Assembly: GCF_002943755.1 (NCBI RefSeq)
Contig: NZ_MQUB01000001.1
Location: forward strand, 900,501-964,500
Length of the DNA: 64,000 nucleotides
Direction: 5' to 3'
Origin: Aureitalea marina
GTDB taxonomy: Bacteria > Bacteroidota > Bacteroidia > Flavobacteriales > Flavobacteriaceae
Positions 50,500 to 64,000 of this stretch are shown here, one piece after another; position 1 is the stretch's first letter, and each line of letters starts with the position of its first letter. The translations under genes were made by a program, and so were the position numbers. The notes under the pieces were generated by a model. It searched no databases and was not told the DNA's origin. It was given only the letters and a program-made list of their open reading frames with translations.

Positions 50500-52170
50500 C
50501 TATTTCTCGTAAGCTTCTTCATGTACATTAGCAACAGCCCGTCCGCTGGGGTCGTTCATGTTTTGGAAACTGGCATCCCAAGCCAGGGCAACCGGACTAC
50601 TACAAGCTACTGAAGGAACCGATGGCACGCTTAGCGCTGCAGTATCACTTGGGAAATGCTCTTCGAATATGCTTCGATAATAGAATTCCTCTTTGGATGT
50701 TGGTGTTTGAATAGGAAAGCGGAAGTGGGCATTGGCCATTTGTTCATCCGTTACCTCCTGGTCTACCATTTCCTTTAGCGTGTCTATCCAACTGTAGCCT
50801 ACACCATCGCTGAACTGTTCTTTCTGCCTCCAGGCCACGCTTTCGGGTAACATATCTTCGAAGGCCTTACGCAGTATCCACTTCTCCATACGTTCCCCGT
50901 TGATCATTTTATCCTCGGGGTTCAGTCGCATGGCCACATCCATGAACTCCTTGTCCAGGAATGGCACACGTCCTTCAATTCCCCAGGCCGCCAAAGATTT
51001 GTTCGCCCTCAGGCAGTCGTATTGGTGCAGCTTATCTAGTTTCCTGACTGTCTCCTTATGGAATTCTTCGGCATCCGGTGCCTTGTGGAAGTATAGATAA
51101 CCACCGAAAATCTCGTCACTTCCCTCTCCACTGAGCACCATTTTGATACCCATGGCCTTGATGGCCCGAGCCATGAGGTACATGGGAGTAGAGGCCCTTA
51201 TTGTTGTAATATCATAGGTCTCCAAGTGGTAGATCACATCTCGGATGGCGTCTATACCTTCCTGAATGCTGAATTTGATCTCGTGATGCACTGTATCCAG
51301 ATGATCCGCTACCTTTTGAGCTGCAGCCAGGTCAGGTGAACCTTCTAGACCAATGGCAAAGGAGTGCAACCTAGGCCACCAGGCTCCTTCCTGGTCACCA
51401 GATTCTACCCGCTTATCTGCGTACTTTTTGGCCAGGGCAGAAGTGATGGAAGAATCTAATCCACCGGAAAGCAACACACCATAAGGCACATCACTCATCA
51501 ATTGGCGGTGTACGGCAGCATCCAGGGCCTCTCTCAATTCTTCAATTGAACTCTCATTGTCTTTCACATGTTCAAAGTCCATCCAATCCCGACTGTACCA
51601 TTTTTTAAGCTCTCCATCCTTGCTGTAGAGATAATGACCAGGAGGAAAGAGTTCGATCTTACTGCAGTAGCCTTCTAAGGCCTTTAGTTCTGAAGCGACA
51701 TAGAATGTCCCATTCTTGTCCCATCCCATATAGAGGGGGATGATACCCATATGGTCCCTGGCGATGAGGTAAGCATCCTCTTTGGCATCGTATAAGGCAA
51801 AACCGAATATGCCGTTCAGTTCGTCCAGGAATTCCGCTCCTTTGTCCTTGTAGAGGGCAAGGATCACCTCACAATCCGACTGGGTCTGAAATTGATATTT
51901 TCCTTCATAAGGAGCTCTCAGCTCCAAATGGTTGTAGATCTCTCCATTGGCAGCCAGAACCAGGGATTGGTCTTCAGAGAACAGGGGTTGTTTCCCGGAG
52001 GTTGGATCAACAATAGCCAGCCGCTCATGGGCAAGTATGGCGTGATCATTAGTATATATACCGCTCCAATCCGGACCGCGGTGACGGATGGTTTTAGACA
52101 TGGCCAGGAGCTGAGGTCTTAGGCTCTCTGGAGATTGTTTCAGGTCGAAGGCGCAAACGATTCCACACAT
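50500..52170 (-). CDS. asnB: Glutamine-hydrolysing asparagine synthase
   Basis: This 556-residue cytoplasmic enzyme makes asparagine from aspartate, glutamine and ATP. Residues 2-190 are the class-II amidotransferase with the Cys-2 nucleophile (MCGIVCAFD), IRHRGPDWSG and LVLAANGEIYNH. The synthetase domain has the pyrophosphate loop YGVLLSGGLDSSITSALAKK, IKMVLSGEGSDEIFGGYLYF and the C-terminal EGRVPFLDKEFMDVAM. The length and arrangement match E. coli AsnB. It is followed by the E1 gene's terminator and its own 5' gap. Confidence 0.97.
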   Translation of the reverse strand: MCGIVCAFDLKQSPESLRPQLLAMSKTIRHRGPDWSGIYTNDHAILAHERLAIVDPTSGKQPLFSEDQSLVLAANGEIYNHLELRAPYEGKYQFQTQSDCEVILALYKDKGAEFLDELNGIFGFALYDAKEDAYLIARDHMGIIPLYMGWDKNGTFYVASELKALEGYCSKIELFPPGHYLYSKDGELKKWYSRDWMDFEHVKDNESSIEELREALDAAVHRQLMSDVPYGVLLSGGLDSSITSALAKKYADKRVESGDQEGAWWPRLHSFAIGLEGSPDLAAAQKVADHLDTVHHEIKFSIQEGIDAIRDVIYHLETYDITTIRASTPMYLMARAIKAMGIKMVLSGEGSDEIFGGYLYFHKAPDAEEFHKETVRKLDKLHQYDCLRANKSLAAWGIEGRVPFLDKEFMDVAMRLNPEDKMINGERMEKWILRKAFEDMLPESVAWRQKEQFSDGVGYSWIDTLKEMVDQEVTDEQMANAHFRFPIQTPTSKEEFYYRSIFEEHFPSDTAALSVPSVPSVACSSPVALAWDASFQNMNDPSGRAVANVHEEAYEK

Positions 52171-52202: not shown

Positions 52203-52237
52203 AAAAAAACCCGTCAGATTAACAAAAACCTGACGGG
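52203..52237 (-). terminator. Terminator of the fused E1 gene
   Basis: The arms CCCGTCAG and CTGACGGG enclose a 12-base loop, followed leftward by seven T. It lies about 150 bases after the E1 stop and shortly before the asnB start. It could also act on transcripts leading into asnB. Confidence 0.88.
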
Positions 52238-52385
52238 CCATATATCGCGACAAGTTTTTGCTACGGCATTGCGTTATTATTATTCAAATTGTTATTCAGT
52301 GCAGTAAACATAACTTGTACTTCTCTTTTACTTGAATCAAATATCCAATTATTTCTGGATAATCCAACAATTTTGTAAGAAAAAT

Positions 52386-58622: not shown

Positions 58623-61450
58623 CTAATGTAGCTCTTTTTTCAGGAAGCGGGCGGTGTGTCCATTCCCCTTGACCAGTTGTTCCGGGGTACCTGTAGCAAC
58701 AATTGTGCCTCCGTTCTTTCCACCTTCCGGACCCAGGTCTATAATGTGGTCTACGGTCTTGATCACATCCAGGTTGTGTTCTATGATCAATACTGTATTT
58801 CCTTTGTCTACTAATTTATTTAAGACCTGAAGTAAAACTCGAATGTCCTCAAAGTGGAGTCCTGTAGTCGGTTCGTCCAGGATATAAATTGTGTTACCTG
58901 TATCCCGCTTGGAAAGCTCGGTGGCGAGTTTGATTCGCTGAGCCTCCCCACCAGAAAGCGTAGTTGATTGCTGCCCCAGGGTTATATAGCCCAACCCAAC
59001 ATCCTGGATGGTCTTTAGTTTGCGGTATATCTTTGGGATGTGCTCAAAAAAGGCACAAGCCTCATTGATGGTCATGTTAAGAACATCGGAGATGGACTTA
59101 CCCTTATAGCGGATCTCCAGGGTCTCTCGGTTAAACCGCTTCCCCTGACAAGTCTCGCATTCCACGTAGACATCCGGAAGGAAATTCATTTCGATGACAC
59201 GCAGACCACCTCCCTGGCAGGTTTCGCATCGCCCGCCCTTTACATTGAAACTGAATCTACCGGGCTTATATCCACGAATCATGGCTTCAGGTACTTTGGC
59301 AAAGAGACTGCGGATCTCAGAGAATACCCCGGTATAGGTGGCTGGGTTGGACCTCGGTGTCCGTCCGATCGGGGCCTGATTGATGTCTATCACCTTATCC
59401 AGGTGTTTCAGACCACTGATGGTCTTGTAAGGCATGGGTTTCTTCACTCCGTTGTAGAAGTGGTTGTTAAGTATGGGATAGAGGGTCTCATTGATCAAGG
59501 TGGATTTTCCACTACCGGACACGCCGGTGACCCCGATCATCTTCCCCAGGGGCAGGTTGATAGAAACGTCCTGCAGGTTATTTCCGGTCGCTCCCAGTAG
59601 TTTCAAGGATTTGCCGCTTCCTTTTCTACGTTCTTGGGGAATCTTGATCTCTTTGGTACCATTGAGGTAGTCCGCTGTCAGGGTATGTTGTTCCCGGATC
59701 TGTTCCGGAGAACCGGTGGATACGATCTCACCCCCATGCTTGCCGGCGGCAGGACCGATATCGATCACATAGCCAGCCTTTTCGATCATGTCCTTGTCGT
59801 GTTCCACCACCAGAACAGAATTTCCCAAATCTTTGAGTTGGATCAAGGATTGGATCAGTTTTTCATTGTCCCGCTGATGCAGTCCTATACTGGGTTCGTC
59901 AAGGATATACAATACGCCAACCAATTGGGAGCCGATTTGGGTTGCCAGCCTGATACGCTGTGCTTCACCGCCGGAGAGGGATTTTGAACTTCTATTCAGT
60001 GATAAATAGGTTAGGCCTACATCCATCAGGAATTGCAGCCTAGCCTTTACCTCTTTAATGATCTCTGAGGCAATCTGCTGCTGGTTTTCACTCAGTCTAT
60101 CGTGCAGATCTGAAAACCAGATAGCTAAATCCTGAATGTCCATTTCGGACAGCTGAGCAATGTTCTTATCGTTTACTTTGAAGTTCAGGGATTCCTTGCG
60201 CAAGCGGGCACCGTGACATTCCGGACAACGTACACTATCCATGTATTCCTTGGCCCATCTCCTGAGCGATTTAGATTCGTTGGCTTCGAAGGTGTGTTGC
60301 AGGAAAGTCGCCACTCCTTCAAAGTCTATTTTGTAGCTGCGGGTAATTCCAAGGGTCTTGGAGGCCACATCAAATTTTTCGTTACCCCGTGAAAGATGAT
60401 CTCCTGGGCTTCCTTAGGGATGGCATGAAAGGGATCTGATAGTTTAAAATCGTAGCGCTGAGCGATCAGTTCCAATTGTTTGAAGATCCAGTTGTTCTTG
60501 TTGGGTCCATGAGGAGCAAGGGCCCCATTATTGATGGATAGTTCCCTGTTGGGAACGATCTTTTCCAGGTTGACCTCATGTAAATGACCAAGCCCTTTAC
60601 ATTTTGGGCACATTCCCTTGGGGGAATTGAATGAAAAGTTGTTCGGTTCTGGATTGGGGTAGGAGATACCGGAGGTGGGACACATCAGGGACCGGCTAAA
60701 GAACCTGACCTGATCATTCTCTGCGTCCTGTACCATCATAATATCATTACCGTGATACATGGCGGTTGCTATAGACTCGGTAATACGTTTTTCAAGTTCT
60801 GCTCCCTGATCCATCTTCAGGCGATCGATCACGATCTCGATATCGTGCGTTTTATATCGATCGATCCGCATTCCTTTTACCACGTCAAGAATCTCACCAT
60901 CCACGCGAACACGTGTAAAGCCCTGTTTTCCGATCTGTTCGAATAATTCCCGGTAGTGACCCTTTCTGGACCGCACCACTGGTGCGAGAACGATCAATTT
61001 CCTGTCCTGGAACTCCTGGACGATCAATTCCCGGATCTGCTCATCGCTGTAGGAGACCATGCGTTCTCCCGTCTCGTAACTAAAAGCGTCACTGGCTCTA
61101 GCATAGAGCAAGCGAAGAAAGTCATAGATCTCGGTAATGGTACCTACTGTAGAACGCGGGCTTCTGCTGGTGGTCTTTTGCTCGATGGCGATCACTGGAG
61201 ATAAGCCATCGATCTTATCTACATCCGGGCGCTCCAGGCTACCTAAAAATTGACGTGCGTAGGCAGAAAAGGTCTCGATATAACGTCTTTGGCCCTCGGC
61301 ATAGATGGTATCGAAGGCCAAGGATGATTTTCCGCTACCTGATAACCCGGTAATAACGACTAGCTCTTCCCTGGGGATAATAACATCGATATCCTTTAAA
61401 TTGTGGACTCTTGCCCCTAAAACCTCGATAAATTCACCTTGATCGACCAT
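58623..61450 (-). pseudogene. uvrA: UvrABC excision nuclease subunit A, interrupted by a one-base frameshift
   Basis: This is the DNA-damage sensor of nucleotide excision repair. The first frame (from ATG 61450) has Walker A VVITGLSGSGKSSLAFDTIY, the signal SYDEIVG region and the zinc finger CPKCKGLGHLHEV, then runs off frame at IIFHGVTKNLM. The second has zinc-finger CETCQGGGLRVIEMNFLPDV, two signatures LSGGEAQRI, and the second Walker A GVTGVSGSGKSTLINETLY. The frames cross at a C run (60385-60388; four C on the plus strand). Five would give FHGGNEKFDVASKTLG, as in other Bacteroidota UvrA, and a 942-residue protein, the normal length. Loss of a base by miscalling is the simplest reading; a real knockout would cripple repair. 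Start chosen at the ATG rather than a TTG three codons before it. Confidence 0.9.
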
Positions 61451-61551: not shown

Positions 61552-62577
61552 TCAGCCCTGAACAGGCGGGCTAAATTGGTTCTTGAGGAAGGGATAAAGG
61601 GAGAAGGTGATAAAGAAAAAGATCCCGCTTACAAAAGCAAAGGAGACCATCAAGGTGATTTCCGGAAGTTGAAATAACCGATAGGCCAGGGGTAGGCTCA
61701 ATCCGAATAATACCAAAGCTAGGAATAAGCCATAGAGATAATTGACAAAGGCAGGGAGGCTTTGTCTGATCTTGCTTTGGAGTTGGAATAATCTCGGGAT
61801 GACCTCATTGGTCATGTATTCACCCAATTTGGATAAGAATACCTCGTTGAAAGAGGAATCTTCAAATGCTTCACCGTCTATAGAATAGGCCAAGGTCATG
61901 ATCTTCTCCTGATGCCTTTCGTAAACGGCTTCGTAGTTGAGCGCCTCTTTGTAGGAGGCGTATTTGTATCCAAAATAATACCACAGGCCTGAACCGCACT
62001 TATGCTCCAACCACTTTTGAACCATCTCATTTGGGTAGATTGAAGGGTGGGAGATCTGCTCTTTAACCCGTCTCTCCCGGAGGTCGGTCATCAACAGGGA
62101 TTTCAGCTCCAGATATAAGTTCTCAGTGTCCTGATAAGGCGAGTTTTCCTGTAGGAATTCGATGGCCAGTTTGGACTTTCCCTTGTAAAACTCCTTTACT
62201 TCGAAGAAGGTCAGACCTTCGAATTCATCATCAATGTATTCTTTGAGCCCAGGCATCCACATTTTAGAATTCATCAGTAACTCCACTATACTGCGGAAAT
62301 GATGCATCTTTTGCGTCAGTAAGGTGAGCAGATCGCTATTGGTGTCCTGGTTTTGACGGAGACGGCCGATGGTGAAGAGCAAATACAGAACAATGAGTAA
62401 ACACAGACCGCCACTGATGGCCATAAATGGACCGCTAGCCAACTGCAACCGCTCTACATATTCCGTATTGGTACCGGAATTGTACCAGAGCAGGAAAAAA
62501 ATGGCTATAGTGACTATCCCGCTTATCCCCAATGGGATCAGGGCATAGGAGTGGGATATGAGTGGGGTCTTTCTCAT
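61552..62577 (-). CDS. Membrane protein of unknown function, four helices
   Basis: This 341-residue inner-membrane protein has two N-terminal helices (IPLGISGIVTIAIFFLLWY and FMAISGGLCLLIVLYLLFTI), a soluble helical domain of about 180 residues (YIDDEFEGLTFFEVKEFY, RHQEKIMTLAYSIDGEAFED), and two C-terminal helices (VNYLYGLFLALVLFGLSLPL and LMVSFAFVSGIFFFITFSL). I do not recognise the family. The leader upstream carries a long hairpin with a T10 tract ending 22 bases before the start codon, suggesting attenuation control. It is not in an operon with uvrA by spacing (101 bases). Confidence 0.65.
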   Translation of the reverse strand: MRKTPLISHSYALIPLGISGIVTIAIFFLLWYNSGTNTEYVERLQLASGPFMAISGGLCLLIVLYLLFTIGRLRQNQDTNSDLLTLLTQKMHHFRSIVELLMNSKMWMPGLKEYIDDEFEGLTFFEVKEFYKGKSKLAIEFLQENSPYQDTENLYLELKSLLMTDLRERRVKEQISHPSIYPNEMVQKWLEHKCGSGLWYYFGYKYASYKEALNYEAVYERHQEKIMTLAYSIDGEAFEDSSFNEVFLSKLGEYMTNEVIPRLFQLQSKIRQSLPAFVNYLYGLFLALVLFGLSLPLAYRLFQLPEITLMVSFAFVSGIFFFITFSLYPFLKNQFSPPVQG

Positions 62578-62598: not shown

Positions 62599-62685
62599 AA
62601 AAAAAAAAGCAGATCTCGTTAAGTCTGGGCAGAAACATCAAAGTCCTACAAACGTACACCCAGACTAGGGCTAACGGGATCTGCT
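62599..62685 (-). promoter_or_regulatory. Long leader hairpin with T10 tract, attenuator-like
   Basis: Reading leftward, three stacked stems pair: AGCAGATC with GATCTGCT (8 bp), TAACG with CGTTA (5 bp), and AGTCTGGG with CCCAGACT (8 bp). They flank a 29-base apical loop, with one base opposite another (G against A) and a five-base bulge. Ten T follow at once. It ends 22 bases before the start codon of the leftward membrane protein gene. Its structure suits an attenuator or small RNA 3' end; no riboswitch class is recognised. Confidence 0.6.
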
Positions 62686-62760
62686 ATAGGTATAGCTATA
62701 CACCATTAGTTGGATTTAGTTAGTTCCTCAAAATTAGCGATTAATCCTACAAAATGTAGT

Positions 62761-62784
62761 AAAAAACTTACATTTCGATGTAAG
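62761..62784 (-). terminator. Terminator of the gamma-glutamyltransferase gene
   Basis: The arms CTTACAT and ATGTAAG enclose a four-base loop (TTCG on the plus strand), followed leftward by six T, 45 bases after the stop codon. It separates this gene from the leader hairpin of the next one. Confidence 0.85.
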
Positions 62785-62828
62785 AACAGAAAAGCCCGAT
62801 AAACGGTCAAAAAATAAGTTGGAATACG

Positions 62829-64000
62829 TTAAAATCCGACAGAAGTATCGTCTCCACGTCTGTCTGCTCCACCCTCCAGGCGACCATCCGGTAATACTAG
62901 GATTCCATCCACCTTACCGATTACTGGTGAGTTATTCTCGTTGGTTTGGTAACCTTTGGCTCTAAGGGCTTCAAGTACAGCAGGGTCAAAGGAATTGGGT
63001 TCAAACAACACCACGTCTGGCAGCCATTGATGATGAAATCTCGGGGCATTTACGGCTTCTTGCATGGTCATGCCGTGTTCATAGACGTTCAGAACGGTTT
63101 GTAGAACCGACGTGATGATGGTAGATCCACCGGGTGTTCCCACGGTCATCCAAAATTCGCCGTCCTTCTCTACCAGGGTGGGGGTCATGGAACTCAGCAT
63201 ACGCTTACCTGGTGCAATGGAATTGGCTTCTCCGCCAATAAGGCCAAACATATTTGGCTCGCCTGGTTTTGCACTAAAATCGTCCATTTCGTTATTCAAA
63301 AAGAACCCAATGGAATCGGCATACATTTTAGAGCCGTAGGCCCCATTTAGCGTGACTGTGACAGAAACCGCATTACCCTGGGTATCCACTATTGAATAGT
63401 GGGTGGTCTCCATGCTTTCATAGCCGGGGATACTTCCATAATTGATCGAAGAAGAGGGAGTGGCCTGGTCAAAAGAAAATTCGTCCATACGACCGGATAG
63501 ATAGTCGTCCGAGATCAAGGTGTCAATGGGAATATTGACAAAATCAGGGTCGCCCAGATAGAAACTGCGATCGGCGTAGGCACGGCGCTCGGCCTCTACC
63601 ATGAGCTGTATGGCCTGGGTACTGTTGTGACCGTATACTCCGATAGGGTATGGCTCTATCATATTCATGATCTGGGCAAGGCAGACACCACCACTAGAAG
63701 GAGGGGCCATGGAGATAACTCGCAAATCCTTGTAATCAAAGACTACCGGCTCCCGCCAGACTGCTTCGTAAGCTGCCAAATCCTCCATTGTAATAATACC
63801 ACCGTGTCCTTGGACAAAATCCACCAGTTGCCGGGCAGTTTCCCCTTGGTAAAATTCAGACCGACCATTCTCAGCTATTCTTGTCAGTGTTGCTGCTATT
63901 GCAGGATTTTTCAGGGTATCACCTGCCTCATAAACCTGGGTGTAGACAGACCCCTTGCCATTTACTTCTTCAAAGAGGTCCCGATAGTTATCAAATCGTT
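62829..64000 (-). CDS. Gamma-glutamyltransferase, partial (cut by window end)
   Basis: The reading frame stays open to the window's right edge; 390 C-terminal residues are visible and the N-terminal part, with any signal peptide, lies outside. The enzyme transfers or hydrolyses gamma-glutamyl groups of glutathione in the periplasm. The precursor self-cleaves before the Thr of ESMETTHYSIVDTQGNAV, giving the small subunit, and that Thr is the nucleophile. Other conserved parts are PPSSGGVCLAQIMNMIEPY before cleavage and SMTPTLVEKDGEFWMTVGTP, GGSTIITSVLQTVLNV and a C-terminal GVDRR-like GGADRRGDDTSVGF. Its terminator lies just downstream. Confidence 0.95.
   Translation of the reverse strand, partial: RFDNYRDLFEEVNGKGSVYTQVYEAGDTLKNPAIAATLTRIAENGRSEFYQGETARQLVDFVQGHGGIITMEDLAAYEAVWREPVVFDYKDLRVISMAPPSSGGVCLAQIMNMIEPYPIGVYGHNSTQAIQLMVEAERRAYADRSFYLGDPDFVNIPIDTLISDDYLSGRMDEFSFDQATPSSSINYGSIPGYESMETTHYSIVDTQGNAVSVTVTLNGAYGSKMYADSIGFFLNNEMDDFSAKPGEPNMFGLIGGEANSIAPGKRMLSSMTPTLVEKDGEFWMTVGTPGGSTIITSVLQTVLNVYEHGMTMQEAVNAPRFHHQWLPDVVLFEPNSFDPAVLEALRAKGYQTNENNSPVIGKVDGILVLPDGRLEGGADRRGDDTSVGF

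Follow-up and report, generated by a model that had tools for sequence, protein, structure and literature searches.

The window, by which we mean the whole stretch of 64,000 nucleotides of Aureitalea marina DNA analysed here, carries on its minus strand a gamma-glutamyltranspeptidase gene (ggt) and, downstream of it, a gene for a membrane protein, with a promoter-like block and a large hairpin ending in a T tract in between. The features of this interval are as follows:

62829..63998, minus strand: ggt, gamma-glutamyltranspeptidase, the upstream gene (Pfam PF01019, E 1.5e-116), its 5' part lying beyond the window
62797..62803, minus strand: TTTATCG, outer conserved element of the promoter block (columns -31 to -25 in an alignment of 35 loci)
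62784-62761, minus strand: AU-rich hairpin CTTACAT-CGAA-ATGTAAG followed by T6, local fold -5.0 kcal/mol
62755..62779, minus strand: operator-like near-palindrome ATCGAAATGTAAGTTTTTTACTACA over the -33 region, with one mismatch to TGTARGTAWWTTACTACA
62729..62736, minus strand: -7 box TAATTTTG, exactly 18 bases past the operator
62724, minus strand: predicted transcription start
62671..62706, minus strand: leader ORF MVYSYTYSRSR with its stop codon, overlapping the 5' arm of the large hairpin, probably by chance
62685-62678 / 62615-62608, minus strand: stem 1 of the large hairpin, AGCAGATC/GATCTGCT, from sequence and fold
62676-62672 / 62621-62617, minus strand: stem 2, CGTTA/TAACG, from sequence and fold
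62666-62659 / 62629-62622, minus strand: stem 3, AGTCTGGG/CCCAGACT, from sequence and fold
62649..62656, minus strand: second -7-like box TACGTTTG in the hairpin loop, a full match to TAnnTTTG
61552..62577, minus strand: membrane-protein gene, 341 aa, with orthologues in the family

The membrane protein has no Pfam match over the cut-off, no NCBIfam match and no match in the PDB at E <= 0.001, and its AlphaFold model (pLDDT 80) is almost wholly helical. Orthologues occur in 41 of 397 family genomes and 27 of 237 genera, its own genome included, and ten further loci, some from the same species, came from a GTDB scan; the relatives found share at most ~60-64% protein identity. The neighbourhood is largely constant, ggt and uvrA each lying beside the membrane-protein gene in 38 of 40 loci (window's own included; short flanks).

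The large hairpin (minus strand, 62685-62599) has the form of a terminator, with 8+5+8 = 21 pairs and ten T's flush at its 3' end, the first T of the tract (62608-62599) being also the final base of stem 1. A one-sided bulge of 5 bases interrupts the stems, and the 29-base loop (62658-62630) holds, in the predicted fold, a few weak extra pairs. The three stems, the loop and the T10 are all as the original prediction had described them, save that the end of the T tract lies 21 rather than 22 bases before the ATG (62577) of the membrane-protein gene. Origin by chance is ruled out by shuffled sequences and by a scan of the window: the region folds with an MFE of -37.9 kcal/mol over 111 nt (z -4.63), a stability reached by none of 200 shuffles, and the hairpin with its T10, at -33.2 kcal/mol, was equalled by none of 40; a stable hairpin abutting its U tract is what defines an intrinsic terminator. 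When both strands were scanned for hairpins of no more than 100 nt that abut six or more T's, it was the most stable among those listed (runner-up, -27.9 kcal/mol), and T10 is the only run of at least nine T's or A's in the 64 kb. With its 3' arm present, the terminator dominates the predicted ensemble, the outermost pair of stem 1 having a probability of 0.84 and its other pairs at least 0.99.

Upstream of the hairpin lies a block whose consensus in relatives reads TTnATCG, then ATCGAWW, TGTARGTAWWTTACTACA, 18 bases and TAnnTTTG, or in short form ATCGAWWTGTARGTAWWTTACTACA-N18-TAnnTTTG. Its conservation was counted over 45 distinct loci, left from 51 (window's own included) after removal of near or exact duplicates (L054, L057, L058, L060, L084) and of the truncated L059. 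The 18-mer TGTARGTAWWTTACTACA is matched at 16 or more positions in 34 of the 45, the window's included, and in 28, again with the window's, an operator of this quality is followed at exactly N18 by a complete TAnnTTTG; among the 17 deviating loci, five match fewer than 14 positions, while L030 and L037 possess the operator without a complete -7 box at that spacing. Aligning 35 of the first 40 loci (L054, L057, L058, L059 and L060 left out) shows nine invariant positions in the 18-mer, conservation of 91% for the second T of the outer element and of 69-77% for its ATCG, and a fall-off 3' of the -7 box. Placing that box at -12 to -5 relative to the start, as in the F. psychrophilum report (PMC9723704), puts the predicted start at about 62724. 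The -7 box of the original prediction is real, as part of a family-conserved promoter, but belongs at 62736-62729 and not at 62739-62732.

The combined pattern of operator and -7 box finds matches in 20 of 41 genomes, as a single copy in each and always at the membrane-protein gene, so that no wider regulon was seen among them; the window's own copy, with one mismatch, is not one of the 20. Reversed patterns and reversed operators served as controls, and the reversed combined pattern gave no matches. In the window's own genome, operator sites with up to 3 mismatches show no excess (15, against 21 for the reversed control), and two copies with up to 2 mismatches exist besides that in the window. 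A one-mismatch copy, L063 (G000:C1:2760790-2760807), precedes a gene with histidine-kinase matches (and tetratricopeptide repeats, by eye), and has TACATTG 17 bases further along, with AGCCCCCAA after that; it is possibly a second target of the same predicted regulator, or a chance occurrence. Because the block overlaps the usual position of the -33 element, a dedicated activator or repressor is predicted, and its operator-like form and occurrence once per genome at the membrane protein likewise point to a dedicated predicted regulator. The conserved promoter of the membrane-protein gene, its function judged from sequence conservation, is probably a regulated one. Searches of the literature on Flavobacteriaceae promoters, TANNTTTG, small RNAs, attenuators and the motif strings of the block showed, in what they listed, no description of it, which is no proof of absence; the block is apparently uncharacterised, and we regard it as a more durable and useful finding than the hairpin.

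The same block bears on the AU-rich hairpin with T6 (62784-62761), which the original prediction took for a separate, ordinary terminator of the upstream gene. It is weak (-5.0 kcal/mol) and overlaps the conserved operator and promoter block, and hence does not constitute independent evidence; the claim of a separate terminator is not supported.

The leader, unlike the promoter, is not conserved. From the predicted start to the ATG it measures ~147 nt, with the terminator inside. A model of the hairpin had no match at E <= 1 among 50 related loci (near-duplicates included), and in the 397 family genomes, searched with strict filters by which weak matches are lost, it found itself and one match at E 0.006, the latter in a genome for which no orthologue was found. 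We take this lone match as chance-level; a threshold of 0.01 for each genome lets a few chance matches be expected. The original prediction had named the absence of these stems from orthologous leaders as counting against it, and they are indeed absent as far as covered, with none in 50 loci and one chance-level match in 396 other family genomes; neither conserved stems nor covariation, as a conserved cis-regulatory RNA would have, were found in the related loci. The window's genus is represented by one genome, so that the stems are not open to a covariation test within it. Rfam gave no match at the curated threshold over the window, a best E of 0.39, far under the cut-off, for the 501 bases around the hairpin, and no match in 20 loci with the window's own (L022) among them. 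The 6S-Flavo RNA (RF01685) was considered and rejected, the genome's single match lying elsewhere (G000:C1:1059744-1059865), as was a repeat or mobile element, a 201-base region having one match in its own genome (E <= 0.001) and the hairpin model likewise one. A DNA search of 60 genomes, its own among them, returned, apart from the region itself, nothing better than E 0.008, and the matches listed were short.

The related leaders exceed shuffles in structure by just a little on average, their mean z being -1.1 over 37 loci (near-duplicates included) against -5.1 for the window, with L039 at -3.97. Terminator-like hairpins unequalled by 40 shuffles were found in only four of the 44 leaders scanned: the window (-33.2), L039 (-11.4, its T's 22 nt before the ATG), L048 (-13.5, at a distance of 152 nt upstream of the start codon) and L027 (-3.5, trivial). 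The start codon of L034 is called too far downstream, so that its leader includes coding sequence in the fold, terminator and ORF scans (cut off in the duplex test described below), and the leaders of L079-L081, L084 and L085 extend into the gene start. For leader ORFs, the TTGGGG motif and the density of -7-like boxes a set of 39 leaders was used, which further excludes L078, L082, L083, L086, L087 and L088, where no block or leader start is recognisable; no conserved leader ORF was seen among related leaders. TTGGGG itself occurs in 16 of the 39 (L023, L024, L028, L031-L035, L038, L046-L051 and L061; shuffle mean 1.3, maximum 4), mostly 40-65 bases past the -7 box and in 4 of the 16 with CCCC further downstream. 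The window's leader lacks this motif, which accordingly does not explain the hairpin. In one genus (L117 and L053 set against L111 and L113), complementary ATCGCA/TGCGAT flanks are invariant around a core hypervariable in length and sequence, and an inner pair of arms shows a single compensatory change, ATAGCG/CGCTAT having become TTAGCG/CGCTAA; the flanks, being invariant, give no covariation.

The hairpin and its T10 stand between the promoter block (62803-62729, a promoter by virtue of its conservation) and the ATG at 62577, which is the position of an attenuator. This position and the family-conserved promoter upstream, the sole conserved one, support the earlier assignment of the hairpin to the membrane-protein gene's own leader. 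To arrive at the gene, transcription begun at that promoter has to go through the terminator, which, lying between the two, probably throttles the gene. We put at about even the chances that the hairpin is an intrinsic terminator which arose in this lineage inside the membrane-protein leader and acts there as an attenuator. RNA polymerase would start at ~62724 from the conserved, probably regulated promoter, most transcripts would form the 21-pair hairpin, stop in T10 and free a leader RNA of ~125 nt, and the membrane-protein gene would be expressed from read-through; in its simplest form, such an attenuator would be a fixed, constitutive throttle. Termination in vivo, its efficiency and the absence of another promoter feeding the gene are here inferred. 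Three points count against this account: the 29-base loop and the one-sided bulge are untidy for an efficient terminator, the -7-like box within the loop might let the gene be transcribed from beyond the 5' arms, and the window's promoter copy carries its one mismatch. As the relatives searched lack the terminator, it would be one lineage's variant of a known theme and not a new type of switch; if it does terminate, it clearly illustrates how a lineage can place a transcriptional brake 3' of a conserved promoter.

The likeness is to leader-borne intrinsic (Rho-independent) terminators, in which a stable hairpin with a U tract immediately behind it lies between promoter and start codon. The hairpin differs from a typical leader terminator or attenuator in its large loop and one-sided bulge, in that neither antiterminator nor signal was identified, and in that no counterpart was found in a relative. 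For F. psychrophilum, the published report (PMC9723704) speaks of 64 structured 5' transcribed regions and of "strong clues" that operons for amino-acid biosynthesis are preceded by leader-peptide attenuators; these structured leaders belong to the same family, and some of them are, as here, without an Rfam match. An instance for contrast is found within the window:

50500-52170, minus strand: asnB (Pfam Asn_synthase, E 1.2e-90)
52311-52261, minus strand: asnB leader ORF MFTALNNNLNNNNAMP with its stop codon, containing 7 Asn codons
52239-52203, minus strand: GC-rich asnB leader hairpin followed by T7, 32 bases before the asnB ATG

The ORF MFTALNNNLNNNNAMP is the sole one with at least 7 Asn codons among the window's 795 ATG ORFs of 8-30 aa, and 52203-52311 is, on its sequence, a convincing candidate for an Asn leader-peptide attenuator before asnB. 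Like the hairpin studied here, the asnB leader and flavobacterial amino-acid leaders combine a terminator shortly before the gene with a short leader ORF. The asnB leader, however, has its 7 Asn codons, whereas the leader ORF of the membrane-protein gene does not stand out, and no pathway is known for that gene.

This comparison bears on whether the proposed attenuator might be regulated, the choice between termination and read-through being made by the leader ORF of 11 codons, by a protein or by a ligand, as the original prediction suggested for a ligand. The terminator does sit between promoter and gene, the ORF overlaps the 5' arm, with three Tyr codons and its stop codon bordering stem 2, prefix folds show the 5' arm paired elsewhere until the 3' arm is made, and a convincing leader-peptide attenuator lies elsewhere in the window, before asnB. 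Yet the best fold reaches -44.7 kcal/mol and, with the 3' arm held unpaired, -25.5 kcal/mol; no alternative fold comes near the stability of the terminator, and the deficit of 19 kcal/mol means that there is no obvious antiterminator, although a protein- or ribosome-driven one, as opposed to a mutually exclusive fold of comparable stability, may exist. Nor does the ORF exceed chance: an ATG ORF of 8-30 aa arises in 938 of 2000 shuffled leaders, 150 of the window's 387 ATG ORFs of 8-15 aa carry some residue three times or more, and an ORF rich in codons for the amino acid of a pathway is not what is found before a gene without a known one. Together with the lack of conservation in the 50 loci and 397 family genomes and of an Rfam match, this makes a regulated attenuator unlikely in our estimation. 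From the earlier suggestion of an attenuator with a ligand, attenuation is retained as likely by position, while control by a ligand, with no conserved stems and no Rfam match, is not. The same absence of conservation past the promoter, in relatives that share the promoter, argues against the ~125-nt terminated RNA being a small RNA that acts in trans with the hairpin as its 3' end. Its own promoter, its strong terminator and the uniqueness of the locus in the genome would suit such an RNA, but elsewhere the promoter serves the gene, and in L027, L080 and L081, which have the full box at N18, the leaders are short (64, 74 and 81 nt); we regard this reading as quite improbable.

Other readings leave the hairpin in place and change what it does. 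Were its main task to end read-through from ggt and so insulate the membrane-protein gene, the weakness of the ggt-proximal hairpin (-5.0 kcal/mol) and its place in the operator would count in favour, since ggt may then lack a better terminator; the large hairpin would equally block the membrane gene's own conserved promoter upstream, however, and we hold insulation to be decidedly unlikely. We attach very little probability to the loop box TACGTTTG acting as a promoter whose mRNA, starting at ~62644 without the 5' arms, would escape the terminator and leave it to silence upstream transcripts only. A full TAnnTTTG does stand where a transcript would escape, and at the window's density of 0.36 per kb per strand has a ~5% chance of occurring in 130 bases, but the related leaders hold 8 such boxes in 5,799 nt, or 1.38 per kb, spread over 5 of the 39 (the window's leader included), and this higher density raises the chance to ~18%; moreover, no TTG lies 17-23 bases upstream of the box. 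The hairpin might also act on translation or stability and leave termination aside, being then a member of a loosely defined group of long-range stems proximal to the start. Pairing of the leader body with the last 50 nt was significant (p <= 0.05) in 8 of 31 leaders (mean z -0.60; excluded: L027, L030, L037, L039 as too short, L079-L081 and L085), the window being among the 8 and two of them congeners, in counts uncorrected for relatedness, and the genus with complementary flanks around a hypervariable core fits the same idea. Most leaders are nonetheless unremarkable in their folds, and T10 would be left unexplained, which makes a purely translational or stabilising stem very unlikely.

These start-proximal stems could be joined to the terminator reading in a broader account. 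Relatives may, from their sequences, possibly share a leader architecture, and a leader with one job might have had its sequence replaced repeatedly while a long-range, start-proximal stem was kept under the deeply conserved single-copy promoter, a T tract gained here having then turned the stem into a terminator, so that the architecture outlives the sequence; we find this account distinctly improbable. As a minor observation on the neighbouring uvrA, a frame break near 60386 (minus strand) divides the gene into two overlapping ORFs, the relative L056 having one intact frame of 943 aa, and either a sequencing error or a recent mutation may account for it.
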